Positions 24,250 through 39,475 of a DNA stretch of 64,000 bases are shown here, one piece after another. Within the stretch, counting starts at the first letter, position 1, and the number at the start of each line of letters is the position of its first letter. A program made the translations under genes and the position numbers. Below the pieces are notes generated by a model. It had not been told where the DNA came from. It worked only from the letters and a program-made list of their open reading frames with translations, and searched no databases. Origin of the DNA: Desulfovibrio psychrotolerans (GTDB lineage Bacteria; Desulfobacterota; Desulfovibrionia; Desulfovibrionales; Desulfovibrionaceae); the NCBI RefSeq assembly GCF_013340305.1, contig NZ_BLVP01000002.1, positions 186,001-250,000 of the forward strand, written 5' to 3'.

Positions 24250-24647
24250 TATGCCCGCATGCTAGCGTTTCCCGCAGCGTGTTGCAACTGGGGCGGTGAC
24301 GGATGTGCAATAACGCCCTGCATGCAGCTTGCCTGTAGCGGGCGGGAGTATTACCTTGCCTTGCGGAGCGGGAATGCCTATTCGCGCAGTTGCCTGAATT
24401 GAAAGTGCAACGGTGCGCAATGAAAGCTTTTTTGGTGTGCTGGTCCGTGGGATGTGTCCGGTGTGTTGTGTCCGGTGGGATGTGTCCGCAGGGAAACGTG
24501 CTGCTGCCGTTGCCCCGGGCGTGATAGGGATGCGCGCTCAGAATGGACATTCAAGGATACGCGCTCAGAATATTCGATCAGGATATTCGATCAGGAAATA
24601 CGATCAGGTTGCGTTGACGATACGTTAATTTTTGTGAGGAAACGATT
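24250..24647. promoter_or_regulatory. hgcA upstream region with clusters of short direct repeats
   Basis: 398 bp between the divergent endonuclease gene and hgcA. Around 24440-24490 there are three copies of a TGTGTCCG core. Around 24532-24608 there are two copies of GCGCTCAGAAT followed by two copies of ATTCGATCAGG and one of TACGATCAGG. These could be operator half-sites or simply slippage-prone repeats. A TTGACG at 24614-24619 is the best -35 candidate, but no good -10 follows, so I do not name a promoter. Confidence 0.45.
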
Positions 24648-26219
24648 GTGAAGCTGTTTGAACCGTTGCGCATGGCGCCACAGGCTTCTGCGCCAGACCC
24701 GGCACAGTGCTGCCCGGGCCAGACAGACCGGACAGGACAATGCTGCCAGACAGACCAGACAGATCAGACAGACCTGGCAGGCCAGTATACCCCCTCAGGC
24801 TCGTCCTGTGCGGCTGCGCCGCTTTCCGGCGGGGCACCTTGTGCATGTTCGCCGGAAGCGTGCCCGCCCGTTGGCAGTACGGTTCCCGGATGCTGTGCTG
24901 CTGAAGCAGGGCCGGATTCGCCATTTGCGCCTGTTCCTCCGGTTGCCTTTTCCGGGCGGGAGGCAGGAGGGATTGCGGCGTCTGCATTTGCTGATGCCTC
25001 CCGTGGTTCTGTTCATGATTCTGCCTTGGATTCCGCCAGTGGTGCGACCTGTGATACGGGATGCGGTTCAGCATGCGGCGAAAGTGCCAACCCTGCCGCC
25101 GAGCCGTGCTGAGGCCCACCGCCGCGACCTGAGGCCAGGTCGTACGAGCGGGCGGGCTACGCCGTGTATTCCTGCGTGGACACCTTTCTGGATACCCCTG
25201 CCGGTCCCGTACCCCGCGTGCGGACCCGGCGCGGACCGGGAGACTGGGCCGGTACTGCCCTTGCCCGTTTGGGCATAACGCGGGACAACTATGTCGTTTC
25301 GCCCGGTCTGTATGCCGTGGGCACGCCGGATGCGGCTTCTCCGGTTATTGTTACCGCCAACTACAAGCTGACGTTTGATGTGGTGCGCGAAGACCTTGCG
25401 GGGCAGCATGTCTGGCTGCTGGTGCTGGATACTCGCGGCATTAACGTGTGGTGCGCGGCGGGCAAGAATTTGTTCTCTACGGATGAGGTGGTGCGCCGCA
25501 TACGGCGTGCAGAGCTGGATAAGGTGGTATCGCACCGCAGGGTAGTGCTGCCGCAGCTTGGGGCACCGGGGGTTTCTGCCCGCGAAGTACGCCGGGCCAC
25601 GGGTTTTTCCGTGGTGTACGGTCCTGTGCGGTCGGCGGACCTGCCTGACTTTCTCGCTGCCGGACAGAAGGCTACCGAGGCCATGCGTCTGGTGGATTTT
25701 CCCCTGCGGGAGCGGGCGGTTCTTATTCCCGTGGAATTGGTGCTGCTGTGGAAGACGCTGCTGCTGGCCTTTTGCGCAGTGTTCGTGCTTTCCGGCATAG
25801 GGCCGCATGTGTTTTCGTTCACCGAAGCGGTGACGCGGCTGGGCGGATTTGCGTGGGCGACCCTGTTCGGGGTGCTGGCGGGCCATGTGGGCGTGCCGCT
25901 GCTGCTGCCGCGTATTCCCTTCCGGGCCTTTGCCGCCAAGGGGGCGGTGGCGGGCGCGTGCGTGCTGCCGCTGCTGGTGTTTGCTGTGTGGGCCGGAGCT
26001 GCCGGAGCCGCCGGAAGTGGAGGGCCGGGCCTGATGGAGTGGGTTGCGCTGGGGCTGTGGACGGTGACTATCAGCTCGTTTCTGGCCATGAATTTCAGCG
26101 GTTCCACCCCCTACGCCTCGCCCTCCGGGGTGGAGTGGGAGATGCGCCGCGCGGTGCCGCTGCAGGCGCTGGTAGTGGTGGTGTGCGCCTTTTTATGGGT
26201 CTTTGCCGCCTTTGTGTAG
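24648..26219 (+). CDS. hgcA: Mercury-methylation corrinoid protein HgcA, predicted selenoprotein (in-frame TGA at 25110-25112)
   Basis: HgcA methylates Hg(II) using a corrinoid methyl group. Read from GTG 24648 (GAGGA 7 nt upstream), the protein is 523 aa if TGA at codon 155 is Sec. Residues 1-154 form a Cys-rich, low-complexity extension (14 Cys) ending in Cys154-Sec155. Next come GPPPRPEARSYERAGY and the HgcA core: the cap-helix motif NVWCAAGK at 266-273, with Cys269 the expected cobalt ligand, then five membrane segments. A hairpin after the TGA fits a bacterial SECIS. A GTG at 25164 would restore an uninterrupted frame, but it has no ribosome site and drops the residues just before the core. 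HgcA identity is near certain; Sec is inference. A nonsense mutation or sequencing error is the alternative. Confidence 0.85.
24691..24782. repeat. CAGACAGA-type short tandem repeats in the hgcA N-terminal region
   Basis: Repeats of CAGACAGACC and CAGATCAGAC encode Thr-Asp-Gln runs (QTDQTDQTD) in the Cys-rich extension of HgcA. The frame is kept open throughout. Confidence 0.55.
25113..25142 (+). promoter_or_regulatory. Candidate bacterial SECIS element in hgcA
   Basis: Immediately after TGA 25110-25112, a perfect 6-bp stem CGACCT/AGGTCG (25125-25130 with 25137-25142) closes a 6-nt loop GAGGCC. Exactly 18 nt separate the TGA from the loop and the loop begins with G, matching the accepted bacterial SECIS pattern. 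The fdhA element in this window has the same 18-nt spacing. Confidence 0.6.
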
Positions 26220-26227
26220 GAGGATGT

Positions 26228-26518
26228 ATGCAGGGCTTCAGATATATTGAGAATGTGGTCACCATAGGCCTGGATGCGGAGAAGTGTGTGGGCTGTGGCC
26301 TGTGCACGGAGGTGTGTCCGCATCTGGTGTTTCGCATGCAGGATGGGAAGGCCGGATTTGCGGACCGCGAAGCCTGCATGGAGTGCGGGGCGTGTGCGCG
26401 CAATTGCCCTGTGGGAGCGCTTTCCGTGAACCCCGGCGTGGGGTGCGCCTCGCTGATGATTAAACGCTGGCTGCATGAAAAGGGACTGCCCGTGCGCATG
26501 GGCAACGGCTGCTGCTGA
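26228..26518 (+). CDS. hgcB: Mercury-methylation ferredoxin HgcB
   Basis: A 96-aa 2[4Fe-4S] ferredoxin required with HgcA for Hg(II) methylation; it is thought to reduce the corrinoid and pass mercury through its extra cysteines. Two C-x2-C-x2-C-x3-C motifs (Cys20-Cys30 and Cys50-Cys60) bind the clusters. The diagnostic HgcB features are all present: Cys73 in PGVGCASL and a C-terminal Cys95-Cys96 pair. The ATG is 8 bp after the hgcA stop, with GGAGG overlapping that stop, so the genes are coupled. A very strong hairpin terminator follows. Confidence 0.95.
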   Translation: MQGFRYIENVVTIGLDAEKCVGCGLCTEVCPHLVFRMQDGKAGFADREACMECGACARNCPVGALSVNPGVGCASLMIKRWLHEKGLPVRMGNGCC

Positions 26519-34799: not shown

Positions 34800-36710
34800 A
34801 TGAATGACCACCGCCCGCCGGAAGCACCCGGCTGCACCACCCCCACGGATATGCCGCCCGGAACGGGCTGTCTGTCGGTGGACGATCTGCATGTGCTGCG
34901 TGCGGCGTATGAAGCGCGGCTGAACGCCCCCGGCGTGCGGCATGTGTTCATCTGCGGCGGCACCGGGTGCCATGCCACGGGCAGCATTGCTGTGAAGGAG
35001 CGTCTGGTGGCGGAGATTGCCGCCCGTGGTCTGCAGGAGCGGGTGCGTGTGGTGGAGACGGGCTGCAACGGATTCTGCGCCTTGGGCCCGTTGCTGCTGG
35101 TGCATCCGGACAACGTGTTTTACCAGAAGCTCGGCGCGGATGACATGCCGGAACTGGTGGAAGAGCAGCTTGTGCACGGGCGGCAGGTGGAGCGGCTGCT
35201 CTACCGCGACCCGCAAAGCCGCACCCCCATACCGCTTTTTGCCGATATTCCCTTCTTTGCCCGCCAGATGCCGTGGACCCTGCGCAACAAAGGCCTGATC
35301 AATCCGGAATCCATTGAAGACGCCATCGGGCGGGGCGGGTATCTGGGCACTGCCAAGGCACTGCTGGACATGACCCCGCAGGATATTGTGGAGCAGATGA
35401 AGATTTCCGGGCTGCGCGGGCGGGGCGGAGCGGGATTTCCCACAGGCATGAAATGGGAATTTGCCATGCGCAGCCCCGGCGGGGTGAAGTATGTGCTGTG
35501 CAACGCGGACGAGGGCGACCCCGGCGCGTTCATGGACCGTTCCATTCTGGAGGCGGACCCGCACGCCGTGCTGGAAGGCATGATTATCGCCGCGCGCGCC
35601 ATTAACGCCCACAGGGGATACATTTACTGCCGCTCGGAATATCCGCTGGCGGTGCGCCGCGTGCAGATGGCCATTGAGCAGGCACGGGCACGCGGATTGC
35701 TGGGCGGGAATATTCTCGGTTCCGGGTTTGCGTTTGACGTGGACATCTATCAGGGAGCGGGGGCCTTCGTCTGCGGCGAGGAGACCGCCCTTATGCGGTC
35801 CATTGAAGGCAGGCGGGGTATGCCGCGTCCGCGTCCGCCCTTTCCCGCCCACAGGGGGCTGTGGGAGAAGCCAACCATTCTGAACAATGTGGAAACCCTT
35901 GCCAACGTGGCGCAGATAATGCTGAACGGCGGCGCGTGGTATGCCTCGGTGGGCACGGAGCGCAGCAAGGGGACCAAGGTGTTCGCGCTCTCCGGCGATG
36001 TGTGCAACATAGGACTGGTGGAGGTGCCCATGGGCACGCCGCTGCGCACCATCGTGTACGACATAGGCGGCGGTATTCCGGGAAAGCGCAGGCTGAAGGC
36101 CGTTCAGTTGGGCGGGCCTTCCGGCGGATGTATTCCGGAATCGCAGCTGGATGTGGTGGTGGATTACGAGGAAATTGCCAAGGTGGGAGCCATTATGGGG
36201 TCCGGCGGCGCCATTGTGATGGACGACCGCACCTGCATGGTGGATATGGCGCGCTTCTTTCTTGAGTTCATACAGGATGAAAGCTGCGGCAAGTGTACTC
36301 CGTGCAGGGAGGGCACACGCCGTATGCTGGAGATTCTGGAGAATATCTGCGCGGGGAGGGGGCGCTCCGGTGATGTGGAATTGCTGGAAGAGCTTGCCGC
36401 CGTGATAACGGATTCCGCCCTGTGCGGGCTGGGGCAGACGGCGGGCAACCCCGTGCTTTCCGCCCTGCGGTATTTCAGGGATGAGTTCGAGGCCCACATT
36501 GAACACCGGACCTGCCCGGCGAGGCGGTGTGCCGCGCTGCTGGATTTTGCGGTGGACCCCGGACGGTGCAAACGGTGCGGCAAGTGTTTTCATACCTGCC
36601 CCGCAAACGCCGTGCGCTGGAAGAAGAAAGAGGTGGCCACCATTGACCGCGACCTGTGTGTGCGGTGCATGAGCTGCTACGGCGCCTGCGCCTTTGACGC
36701 CATTGACTGA
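34800..36710 (+). CDS. NuoF/HydB-like NAD-binding flavoprotein subunit with extra ferredoxin domains
   Basis: A 636-aa subunit with an N-terminal thioredoxin-like [2Fe-2S] domain (about residues 40-125; CGGTGCHATG and TGCNGFC). The central FMN/NADH domain has GLRGRGGAGFPTG and NADEGDPGAFMDR. The N3-type cluster motif is ESCGKCTPCREG, and a C-terminal 2[4Fe-4S] domain follows (CKRCGKCFHTC and CVRCMSCYGAC). This is the HydB/HylB layout seen in NAD-linked and electron-bifurcating hydrogenases and formate dehydrogenases. ATG 34800 has AAGGAG upstream. It probably exchanges electrons between FdhA and NAD+, possibly with ferredoxin. Confidence 0.92.
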   Translation: MNDHRPPEAPGCTTPTDMPPGTGCLSVDDLHVLRAAYEARLNAPGVRHVFICGGTGCHATGSIAVKERLVAEIAARGLQERVRVVETGCNGFCALGPLLLVHPDNVFYQKLGADDMPELVEEQLVHGRQVERLLYRDPQSRTPIPLFADIPFFARQMPWTLRNKGLINPESIEDAIGRGGYLGTAKALLDMTPQDIVEQMKISGLRGRGGAGFPTGMKWEFAMRSPGGVKYVLCNADEGDPGAFMDRSILEADPHAVLEGMIIAARAINAHRGYIYCRSEYPLAVRRVQMAIEQARARGLLGGNILGSGFAFDVDIYQGAGAFVCGEETALMRSIEGRRGMPRPRPPFPAHRGLWEKPTILNNVETLANVAQIMLNGGAWYASVGTERSKGTKVFALSGDVCNIGLVEVPMGTPLRTIVYDIGGGIPGKRRLKAVQLGGPSGGCIPESQLDVVVDYEEIAKVGAIMGSGGAIVMDDRTCMVDMARFFLEFIQDESCGKCTPCREGTRRMLEILENICAGRGRSGDVELLEELAAVITDSALCGLGQTAGNPVLSALRYFRDEFEAHIEHRTCPARRCAALLDFAVDPGRCKRCGKCFHTCPANAVRWKKKEVATIDRDLCVRCMSCYGACAFDAID

Positions 36711-36727
36711 ACGGGAGAGCGAGCCGG

Positions 36728-39475
36728 ATGGACAACATGCTGACTTTGAACGGCACCGCGTGCGACTTTGTTCCCGGTGAGACCATTCTGGACGTTGCGC
36801 GGCGGAACCATGTGGATATTCCCATCCTGTGCCATCTGAAAGGGGCTTCTCCCACGGGGGCGTGCCGCCTGTGCGTGGTGGAGGTGCGGGGGGCACGCAC
36901 GCTGGTGGCTGCCTGCGCCGCTCCTGCCGGGGCGGGTATGGACGTGCTTACGGAGTCGCCCCGCGTGGTGCGGGCGCGGCGCATGAATCTGGAGCTGCTG
37001 CTGGCCTCCGGGCCGCATGACTGCCTGCTGTGCCCTGCTTCCGGCGACTGTACGTTGCAGGCGCTAGCCTTCCGGTATAACGCGGGCGGCAAAACCTTTG
37101 CGCGGCGCGGGGAGGCGGGAAGGCATCATGAGCCTTCAGAGCGGGACAGGGGGGCGGAGCGTGGCAGAGCGGCTGAGCGGCGCACGCCGGATACGTCCAA
37201 TCCCTTTCTCATCCGCGATTTTTCCAAGTGCGTGCTGTGCGGCCGCTGCGTGCAGGCCTGCAAGGACGTGCAGGTGAACGAGGCCATTGATTACGGCTAC
37301 CGGGGGGCACAGACCAAGATCATTACCCGTAACGACCTGCCGCTGGGGCAGTCTGACTGCGTGTTTTGCGGGGAGTGCCTGCAGGTGTGCCCCGTGGGAG
37401 CCATAACGCTGAAGGACGCGCGGTCCAGACCGCGCCTGTGCGAAACCACGGCGGTGCGCACCACCTGCGCCTACTGCGGCGTGGGATGCCAGATGAACCT
37501 GCATGTGCGGGACAACGTGGTGCATATGGTCACGGGGGCAGAGGGCGTTCCCAACCACAGCAGCCTGTGCGTGAAAGGGCGGTTCGGCATGGAGTTTATC
37601 GCATCGCCGGACAGGCTGACCACGCCGCTGGTGCGCCGGGATGGCGTGCTCACGCCCGCCACGTGGGATGAGGCGCTGGATGCCGTGGCAGAGGGGCTTG
37701 GCCGCATACGCCGGGAGCAAGGGCCGGATGCGGTGGGCGTGCTGGCTTCGGCCCGGTGCACCAACGAGGAAAACTACCTGTTGCAGAAGTTCGCCCGTGC
37801 CGTGGTGGGCACCAACAACGTGGACCACTGCGCGCGGCACTGACACTCCCCCACGGTGGCCGGTCTGGCCGCCGCCTTCGGAAGCGGTGCTGCAACCAAT
37901 CCCATAGACGACGTGGCCCGGGCGGATGTGGTGCTGCTGGCCGGTTCCAATCTGTCGGAGAATCATCCGGTGATGGCGGCGGCGGTAAAGCGGGCGATGA
38001 AGACCGGGACGCGCCTTATCGTGGCGGACCCGCGCAGGGTGGACATGGCCCGCCGCGCCCATGTGTGGCTGCGGCCCGCGCCGGGAACAGACACTGCGTG
38101 GATTCTGGGCATGGCCCACGTTATTCTGGCAGAAGGGCTGCACGATGCCGCATACATTGCCGCCCGCACGGAAGGGGCGGAGGCGTTTTTCGCAAGCGTG
38201 GGGGCATACACACCGGAAAGGGTGGAGGCCATCAGCGGCATTCCGGCACAGCGCCTTACGGAGGCTGCACGGCTGTATGCGTCCGGCAGGGCGGCCATTC
38301 TGTACTGCATGGGCATAACGCAGCATGTGGGCGGCACGGAAACGGTGAAGGCTCTGGCCAACCTTGCCATGCTCTGCGGCAATGTGGGGCGCGAGGGCGG
38401 CGGGGTGAATCCCCTGCGCGGGCAGAACAACGTGCAGGGCGCGTGCGATATGGGCGGCCTGCCGGACAAGCTGCCGGGTTACCGTTCCGTGAGCGATGCT
38501 GCGGCACGGCGGTGTCTGGAAGAGGCGTGGGGCACGGTGCTGCCGGACACGCCGGGCATGACCTCGCGCGATATGTTCCGCGCCATGGAGCAGGGACGGC
38601 TGAAGGGGCTGTATCTGGTGGGTGAGAATCCCATGCTCTCTCACGCCAATCTAAACCACGCGGAAGCGTGCCTTGATGCGCTGGATTTTCTGGTGGTGCA
38701 GGATATCTTTCTTACGGAAACGGCACGCCGGGCGCACGTGGTGCTGCCCGCTGCCTGCTTTGCGGAGAAGGACGGCACCTTTACCAATACCGAACGCCGC
38801 GTGCAGCGGGTGCGCAAGGCTGTGCGCGCGCCGGGAGACGCATGGGAGGATTGGCGGATAGTATGCGCCCTTGCTTCTCGCATGGGCTACCCCATGGGCT
38901 ATGCGTCCTGCGCTGAGATTATGCGGGAGATTGCCGCCGTGGTGCCTTTGTACGCGGGGATTCGCCATGCACGGCTGGAAGGCGGGGGGATTCAGTGGCC
39001 CTGCCCGGACGTGCGGCATCCCGGTACGCCCATTCTGCACACGCGGGAATTCACGCGGGGGAAAGGGCAGTTCCACGCTGTTGCGTGGGTGCCGCCCGCA
39101 GAGGTGCCGGATGCGGATTATCCGCTCATCCTCACCACGGGGCGGGTGCTTTTTCAGTACCATACCGGCACCATGACCCGGCGGGCACGGGGGCTTTCGC
39201 GGCAGGAGCCTGCCCCCTTTGTGGAGATTGCGCCACAGGACGCGCAGCGGGTGGGGGTGGTGCAGGGCGGCATGGTGCGGGTGGTATCGCGCCGGGGAGA
39301 GATAGAGGTGGCGGTGCGCATTTCATCCAAGGCAGTGGAAGGCACGGTGTTTGTTCCCTTCCATTTTGCGGAGGCGGCGGCAAACCGCCTGACCAGCGAT
39401 GCGGCGGACCCTGTGGCGGGCATAAGCGAATTTAAGGTCTGCGCGGTGCGTCTTACGGCAATTCAGGCTTTGTAG
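36728..39475 (+). CDS. fdhA: Selenocysteine-containing formate dehydrogenase catalytic subunit
   Basis: A 915-aa molybdo- or tungstopterin enzyme oxidising formate to CO2. TGA 37841-37843 encodes Sec372 in the motif CARH-Sec-HSPTV, which is invariant in this family; pipelines may split the gene here. N-terminal NuoG-like modules come first: [2Fe-2S] (CHLKGASPTGACRLC), a His-Cys cluster (HDCLLCPASGDC) and 2[4Fe-4S] (CVLCGRCVQAC, CVFCGECLQVC). The catalytic domain follows, with cluster motif CAYCGVGC, then pterin-binding and C-terminal domains. It begins 17 bp after the NuoF-like gene. The neighbouring fhs and folD connect it to folate one-carbon flow. Confidence 0.96.
37844..37873 (+). promoter_or_regulatory. 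SECIS element of fdhA
   Basis: A 7-bp stem (37855-37861 with 37867-37873, one G-U pair) with loop GGTCT starting 18 nt after the TGA. The loop matches that of E. coli fdhF as I recall it. Confidence 0.85.

Follow-up and report, generated by a model that had tools for sequence, protein, structure and literature searches.

Methylmercury is produced by HgcA together with HgcB, a reaction that poses two questions of mechanism, namely how Hg(II) is delivered to the methylated corrinoid and how the product is released. The hgcA gene in the window, by which we mean the whole analyzed stretch of 64,000 nucleotides, contains an in-frame TGA between a Cys-rich N-terminal extension and the HgcA core, which raises the question whether this codon is read as selenocysteine (Sec) and what Sec might do in a mercury methylase. 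The first-pass annotation had described a frame that starts at GTG 24648 behind a GAGGA, reaches a TGA after 154 codons and then remains open through the HgcA core with Pro-Cys-TGA-Gly-Pro-Pro-Pro at the interruption. These coordinates were reproduced: TGA 25110-25112 is the sole break in the frame from GTG 24648 to TAG 26217-26219, and the context reads AEPC-U-GPPPRPE (AEPC-U-GPPPRPEARSYERAGYA). The features of the locus are the following.

24636..24640, + strand: likely ribosome binding site GAGGA, from the sequence
24648..26219, + strand: hgcA, very probably encoding a selenoprotein of 523 residues with a single Sec (residue 155); read-through protein 407 bits with NF040863
24648..25109, + strand: N-terminal extension of HgcA, 154 residues with 14 Cys and three Cys-Cys pairs
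25110..25112, + strand: TGA very probably read as Sec, second residue of the conserved Cys-Cys/Sec pair, from the frame and aligned homologues
25125..25142, + strand: predicted SECIS hairpin, 7 bp, loop AGGC, from fold and covariation
25164..26219, + strand: HgcA corrinoid-binding and membrane part (CdhD domain, PF03599); GTG 25164 is the start under the ordinary code
25452..25454, + strand: cap-helix Cys codon (NVWCAAGK; Cys93 in ND132 numbering, PMC7305189)
26228..26518, + strand: hgcB, all-Cys form, 125.5 bits with NF040864 (cut-off 99)
26444..26446, + strand: HgcB Cys73 codon, TGA in the Sec-HgcB clade

The identity of the core is clear from the profile search, in which the part after GTG 25164 reached 409.1 bits with NF040863 at a curated cut-off of 275, from the cap-helix motif NVWCAAGK with the Co-ligand Cys and from the adjoining hgcB. 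GTG 24648 is the likely start because the sister locus L101 (genome G143 of the same genus) opens with VKLFNLF, likewise from a GTG, in the place of VKLFEPL in the window; the corresponding residues of the second congener, L102 (G145), are VKPLDLM. The exact extent of the extension is less certain than the Sec site, since its codon usage is not gene-like and its conservation is poor. Codon usage failed as support for the extension, giving no gene-like signal over the 154 codons (–0.126 bits per codon in frame) and a third-position GC of 0.54 in 24648-25109 versus 0.74 in the core. The similarity between the extensions of the window and L101 was no better than that of shuffled sequences (30 of 200 shuffles at least as high), while the corresponding numbers were 1 of 200 for the window and L102 and 0 of 200 for L101 and L102. 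Early in the window's extension, an ordinary Cys-Cys pair is present (AQCCPGQ).

Open reading frames on both sides of a TGA are weak evidence for readthrough, as by a mechanical rule 86 TGAs in the 64-kb window have long open flanks. It is the comparison with other genomes that excludes chance, because the TGA is kept in the genus, exchanges with Cys codons at a single column and is followed by a covarying hairpin. HgcA was found in three of the ten genomes of the genus that were searched, including the window's own, and the TGA was present in all three, with mostly synonymous differences around it; the check in sister genomes that the first-pass annotation had proposed thus found the codon in both other hgcA-bearing members. 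At the family level, 55 of 288 genomes had HgcA and in 37 of the 55 a TGA lay inside the match, while six more loci (L135, L138, L139, L142, L143 and L144) carried a CUPP site further upstream, nearer the N-terminus. A sample of the phylum yielded HgcA in 126 of 395 genomes and 36 matches with one TGA, a mechanical count in which not all TGAs lie at the Sec site (the one in G598/L214 does not). When the N-termini were aligned, as had also been proposed, one column pair was CU in 51 and CC in 39 of 215 distinct loci, with the TGA and the Cys alternatives at equal distance from the HgcA core. The earlier remark that many homologues have Cys-Cys-Gly at this place was borne out, the second Cys of a conserved CCG being replaced by TGA in the aligned loci. 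Cys-type HgcA proteins (CCGP, for example L002, L018 and L030) share the column and the spacing to the core with the HgcA of the window but have a Cys codon instead of the TGA and usually lack a SECIS hairpin. Many HgcA proteins contain no Cys pair and no Sec near the site, as in 18 of the 102 loci that combine all-Cys HgcB with an HgcA free of Sec.

For bacterial SECIS elements, the review PMC13188914 gives the rule that the loop lies 16–37 nt after the UGA, with a G in the first two loop bases and a folding energy of at most –7.5 kcal/mol. The hairpin in the window conforms to this rule, with a stem of 25125-25131 paired to 25136-25142, the loop AGGC 19 nt after the TGA and –12.4 kcal/mol. 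The hairpin of the first-pass annotation, with a 6-bp stem and a loop starting with G 18 nt after the TGA, is present as an alternative pairing. It had been said to lie at the same distance as in fdhA of the window, an enzyme unrelated to HgcA from an undisputed Sec family, with TGA 37841-37843 in the context NNVDHCARH-U-HSPTVAG inside the read-through ORF 35861-39475. A hairpin of similar size and distance was indeed found there, with the fdhA loop 19 nt after the TGA in the predicted fold. Taken alone, the hairpin of the window was not significant against synonymous-codon resampling (p 0.108). Among 100 Sec loci, defined by a motif pattern that was written after inspection of the loci, 78 had a qualifying hairpin compared to 19.5% of synonymous-codon resamples, and 22 had none that conformed to the rule; two pattern matches that lie ahead of likely starts (L053 at –116, L157 at –70) were discarded, and the hairpin statistics do not include the upstream site of L102. 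Cys loci had such hairpins in 7 of 74 cases versus 11.7% of their resamples. When all 50 distinct canonical sequences were aligned without gaps, six of the seven pairs varied on both sides and the covariation score was 0.335, compared to at most 0.107 for slid pairings. A count over the 38 sequences in one register, which omitted the 12 of 50 with a shifted hairpin and was repeated with all 50, gave 0.414 versus 0.130.

The source genome contains the genes for Sec insertion that the first-pass annotation had asked for, each above the cut-off of its family: selA (611 bits, cut-off 268), selB (366, 242), selC (79.4, 47) and selD (341, 125). We rejected the presence of selA as a discriminator, because nearly all other hgcA-bearing genomes examined have it as well, 132 of 139 in total (75 of 80 and 57 of 59 in the two counts). 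As a separate observation, selD of this genome (L098, C8:668866-669792) has an in-frame TGA of its own and is therefore likely to encode a selenoprotein itself.

Since Cys and Sec exchange at the column, the TGA is kept in the genus, the SECIS element covaries and selA, selB, selC and selD are present, we are confident, on these sequence comparisons, that UGA 25110-25112 is read as Sec and that hgcA is a selenoprotein gene, as the first-pass annotation had proposed. If the TGA instead terminated translation, the Cys-rich segment would be a leader peptide of its own that ends at 25109, and HgcA would start at GTG 25164. An ordinary in-frame start does exist at this position, the numbering published for the ND132 protein is compatible with a start codon in this region, and neither the window's own hairpin nor its codon usage is strong. 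Against this reading, GTG 25164 is not preceded by a ribosome binding site, the SECIS element covaries, and 39 of the 215 loci have an in-frame Cys instead of the TGA, so that the segment belongs to HgcA there; on these three grounds we rejected a stop with downstream start and consider it very improbable. A sequencing or assembly error at 25112 is refuted for practical purposes and has a negligible probability, because both other hgcA-bearing genomes of the genus, along with dozens of further loci, carry the same TGA. Annotated hgcA genes are likely to be truncated wherever the UGA was taken as a stop.

A selenoprotein mercury methylase had been expected to be new, but it is already in print. 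The table of a 2026 review (PMC13188914) contains HgcA (motif CU, with one Sec) and HgcB (GVGU) as selenoproteins with reference to Haft and Gwadz 2023 (J Bacteriol e00259-22), the paper to which PMC11588087 likewise refers, in one sentence, for both proteins. A further source given in the review is its reference 61 (PMC2398784), in the main text of which we found neither HgcA nor CO dehydrogenase. The gene in the window is thus another member of a known group, with variants in its relatives. It shares the family (NF040863), the Cys-Sec pair and the in-frame UGA with the Sec-HgcA catalogued in PMC13188914, but its Cys-rich extension is unusually long, and in contrast to the one Sec tabulated there, its two congeners have a second one. 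We found no paper describing HgcA with two Sec residues or an alternation of Sec between HgcA and HgcB in the open literature, a scope outside which Haft and Gwadz 2023 lies.

The second in-frame TGA of the congeners stands in the contexts GFC-U-APPAGSGFG (L101) and GGC-U-APPSRPEFRS (L102), 113 and 90 residues before the first TGA and 131 and 108 residues before the core, respectively. In both cases a stable hairpin lies downstream, its short loop containing G and located about 18–19 nt from the TGA, and in L102 the surrounding segment resembles the main one (PSRPEFRS and PPRPEARS). Because this second TGA (CUAPP) has its own hairpin, two of the three hgcA-bearing members of the genus are likely, judging from their sequences, to possess HgcA with two Sec residues. 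G032 (L150) also has a second TGA, AAE-U-GG, within the membrane part of its HgcA; we did not count this one as Sec, and a broken gene, a wrongly called codon or a sequencing error may lie behind it. The motif itself varies as well: among 101 Sec sites counted, 66 were CUGP and 12 CUPP, the order was reversed to UC in L186, L187, L191 and L224, GUGP occurred in L114 and L212 and LUGP in L207, and seven sites had no neighbouring Cys. A tree of 246 HgcA cores built with FastTree required at least 18 changes between Sec and non-Sec (19 on an earlier tree with 214 rows), which indicates that gain and loss of Sec are frequent. The positions that Sec takes across the family offer testable clues to the handling of mercury.

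The position of the Cys-Sec pair also bears on the protein used in biochemical studies. Residues of HgcA from ND132 are numbered Thr60, Thr66, Val91 and Cys93 in PMC7305189. Counting from the Val of VDGF-type starts in group g37, which includes two contigs named Pseudodesulfovibrio (L001 = L110 and L031 = L113), we found Thr60 in 20 of 20, Thr66 in 19, Val91 in 17 (Ile in 3) and Cys93 in 20 sequences. This Val lies 22 residues after the Sec column, and the TGA is present in 20 of the 21 hgcA genes of g37, the remaining one being cut by the end of its contig. Since the published numbering begins past the column of a TGA that is so common in the group, HgcA as studied biochemically probably has no Sec arm, as far as can be told from the sequences. 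HgcA from ND132 is active in lysates (PMC11588087), and because the published protein appears to start after the site and is active, methyl transfer itself can probably proceed without the arm. If natural HgcA of the Pseudodesulfovibrio type has a Cys-Sec arm that is absent from the published constructs, then the natural protein has to be used to measure activity, mercury affinity and selenium dependence anew.

In HgcB (NF040864), the partner of HgcA in the mercury pathway, Sec can take the place of Cys73, and HgcA was then without Sec in the examined loci. With the numbering of the window and ND132, a TGA at residue 73 (motif PGVGU) was present in 58 of 247 usable loci, lying among L003-L076 (22 loci) and L247-L310 (37 distinct); on the FastTree tree they formed one clade of 57 plus L304. 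The 247 loci remained after 25 of 272 had been dropped, 7 without readable N-terminus, 7 without HgcB and 11 without the motif; 13 of the 25 have Sec-HgcA, and wherever HgcB was readable among these 13 (10 loci) it has Cys (NPDDGCGC and similar). No usable locus combined Sec-HgcA with Sec-HgcB (0 of 247, in a sample drawn partly on TGA), and HgcB had Cys73 in 87 Sec-HgcA loci. We rejected a strong claim of exclusion from the pooled Fisher test (p 1.5e-13), which is inflated because loci had been fetched for a TGA in either gene and relatives are not independent. Among loci chosen by similarity alone (80, of which 67 were usable), none had Sec in both proteins where 3.45 were expected (p 0.013). 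Within the Sec-HgcB clade, 3.3 changes to Sec-HgcA were expected under a crude assumption of constant rate and none was seen (P 0.039), and a test on independent pairs found only one or two pairs. The Cys pair of HgcA was missing from 43 of the 58 Sec-HgcB loci, compared to the 18 of 102 all-Cys HgcB loci without Sec-HgcA, and from 15 of 21 versus 2 of 35 such loci in the similarity-only set. As there is a single Sec-HgcB clade plus L304 and few independent events, we regard the alternation as a lead rather than a result. A speculative and rather unlikely generalization would be that HgcAB places its selenol at one site only, the Cys-Sec arm of HgcA or residue 73 of HgcB, as alternative solutions to the same mercury hand-over, that the Cys pair of HgcA decays where HgcB took over, and that an elaborated arm can duplicate its Sec sites, as in the genus of the window.

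The explanation that we favour overall, with reasonable though not full confidence, is a selenoprotein HgcA with a Cys-Sec arm as soft-metal ligand; that the pair binds mercury itself we consider about an even call. The ribosome very probably reads the UGA as Sec, guided by the downstream hairpin, SelB and tRNA-Sec, and readthrough thereby joins the Cys-rich extension to the HgcA core. The pair then sits on an arm that precedes the corrinoid domain, 22 residues before the published numbering, as a putative soft-metal site that may capture Hg(II) or take over the methylated product and may exchange mercury with HgcB through Cys73 and the C-terminal cysteines of the latter. Selenium might strengthen and speed this exchange, and the arm would aid the supply or release of mercury rather than methyl transfer itself. 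Alternatively, Sec may be inserted but have a structural or redox function instead, such as forming a selenenylsulfide by which Cys or Co is kept in the reduced state. Neighbouring Cys and Sec are common redox motifs, and the variation between CU, UC, GU and LU, along with the seven of 101 sites that lack a neighbouring Cys, would suit such a role. On the other side, vicinal cysteines handle Hg(II) in HgcB and in mer proteins, and the second place where the system uses Sec is Cys73 of HgcB, which was proposed as the acceptor of methylmercury and is essential in ND132, where its replacement by Ala abolished methylation (PMC7305189). We hold the redox or structural role to be possible but less probable than mercury binding by the Cys-Sec pair.

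Two further observations concern HgcB. Near residue 73, the HgcB proteins of the Sec-HgcA loci L015, L035, L053, L059, L066, L075, L079, L080, L156 and L158 have DDGCGC or DNGCGC instead of PGVGC. HgcB of L004, which lies on the same contig as L292, has a second TGA in the context ASC-U-DSGCC that could be another Sec or an early stop.
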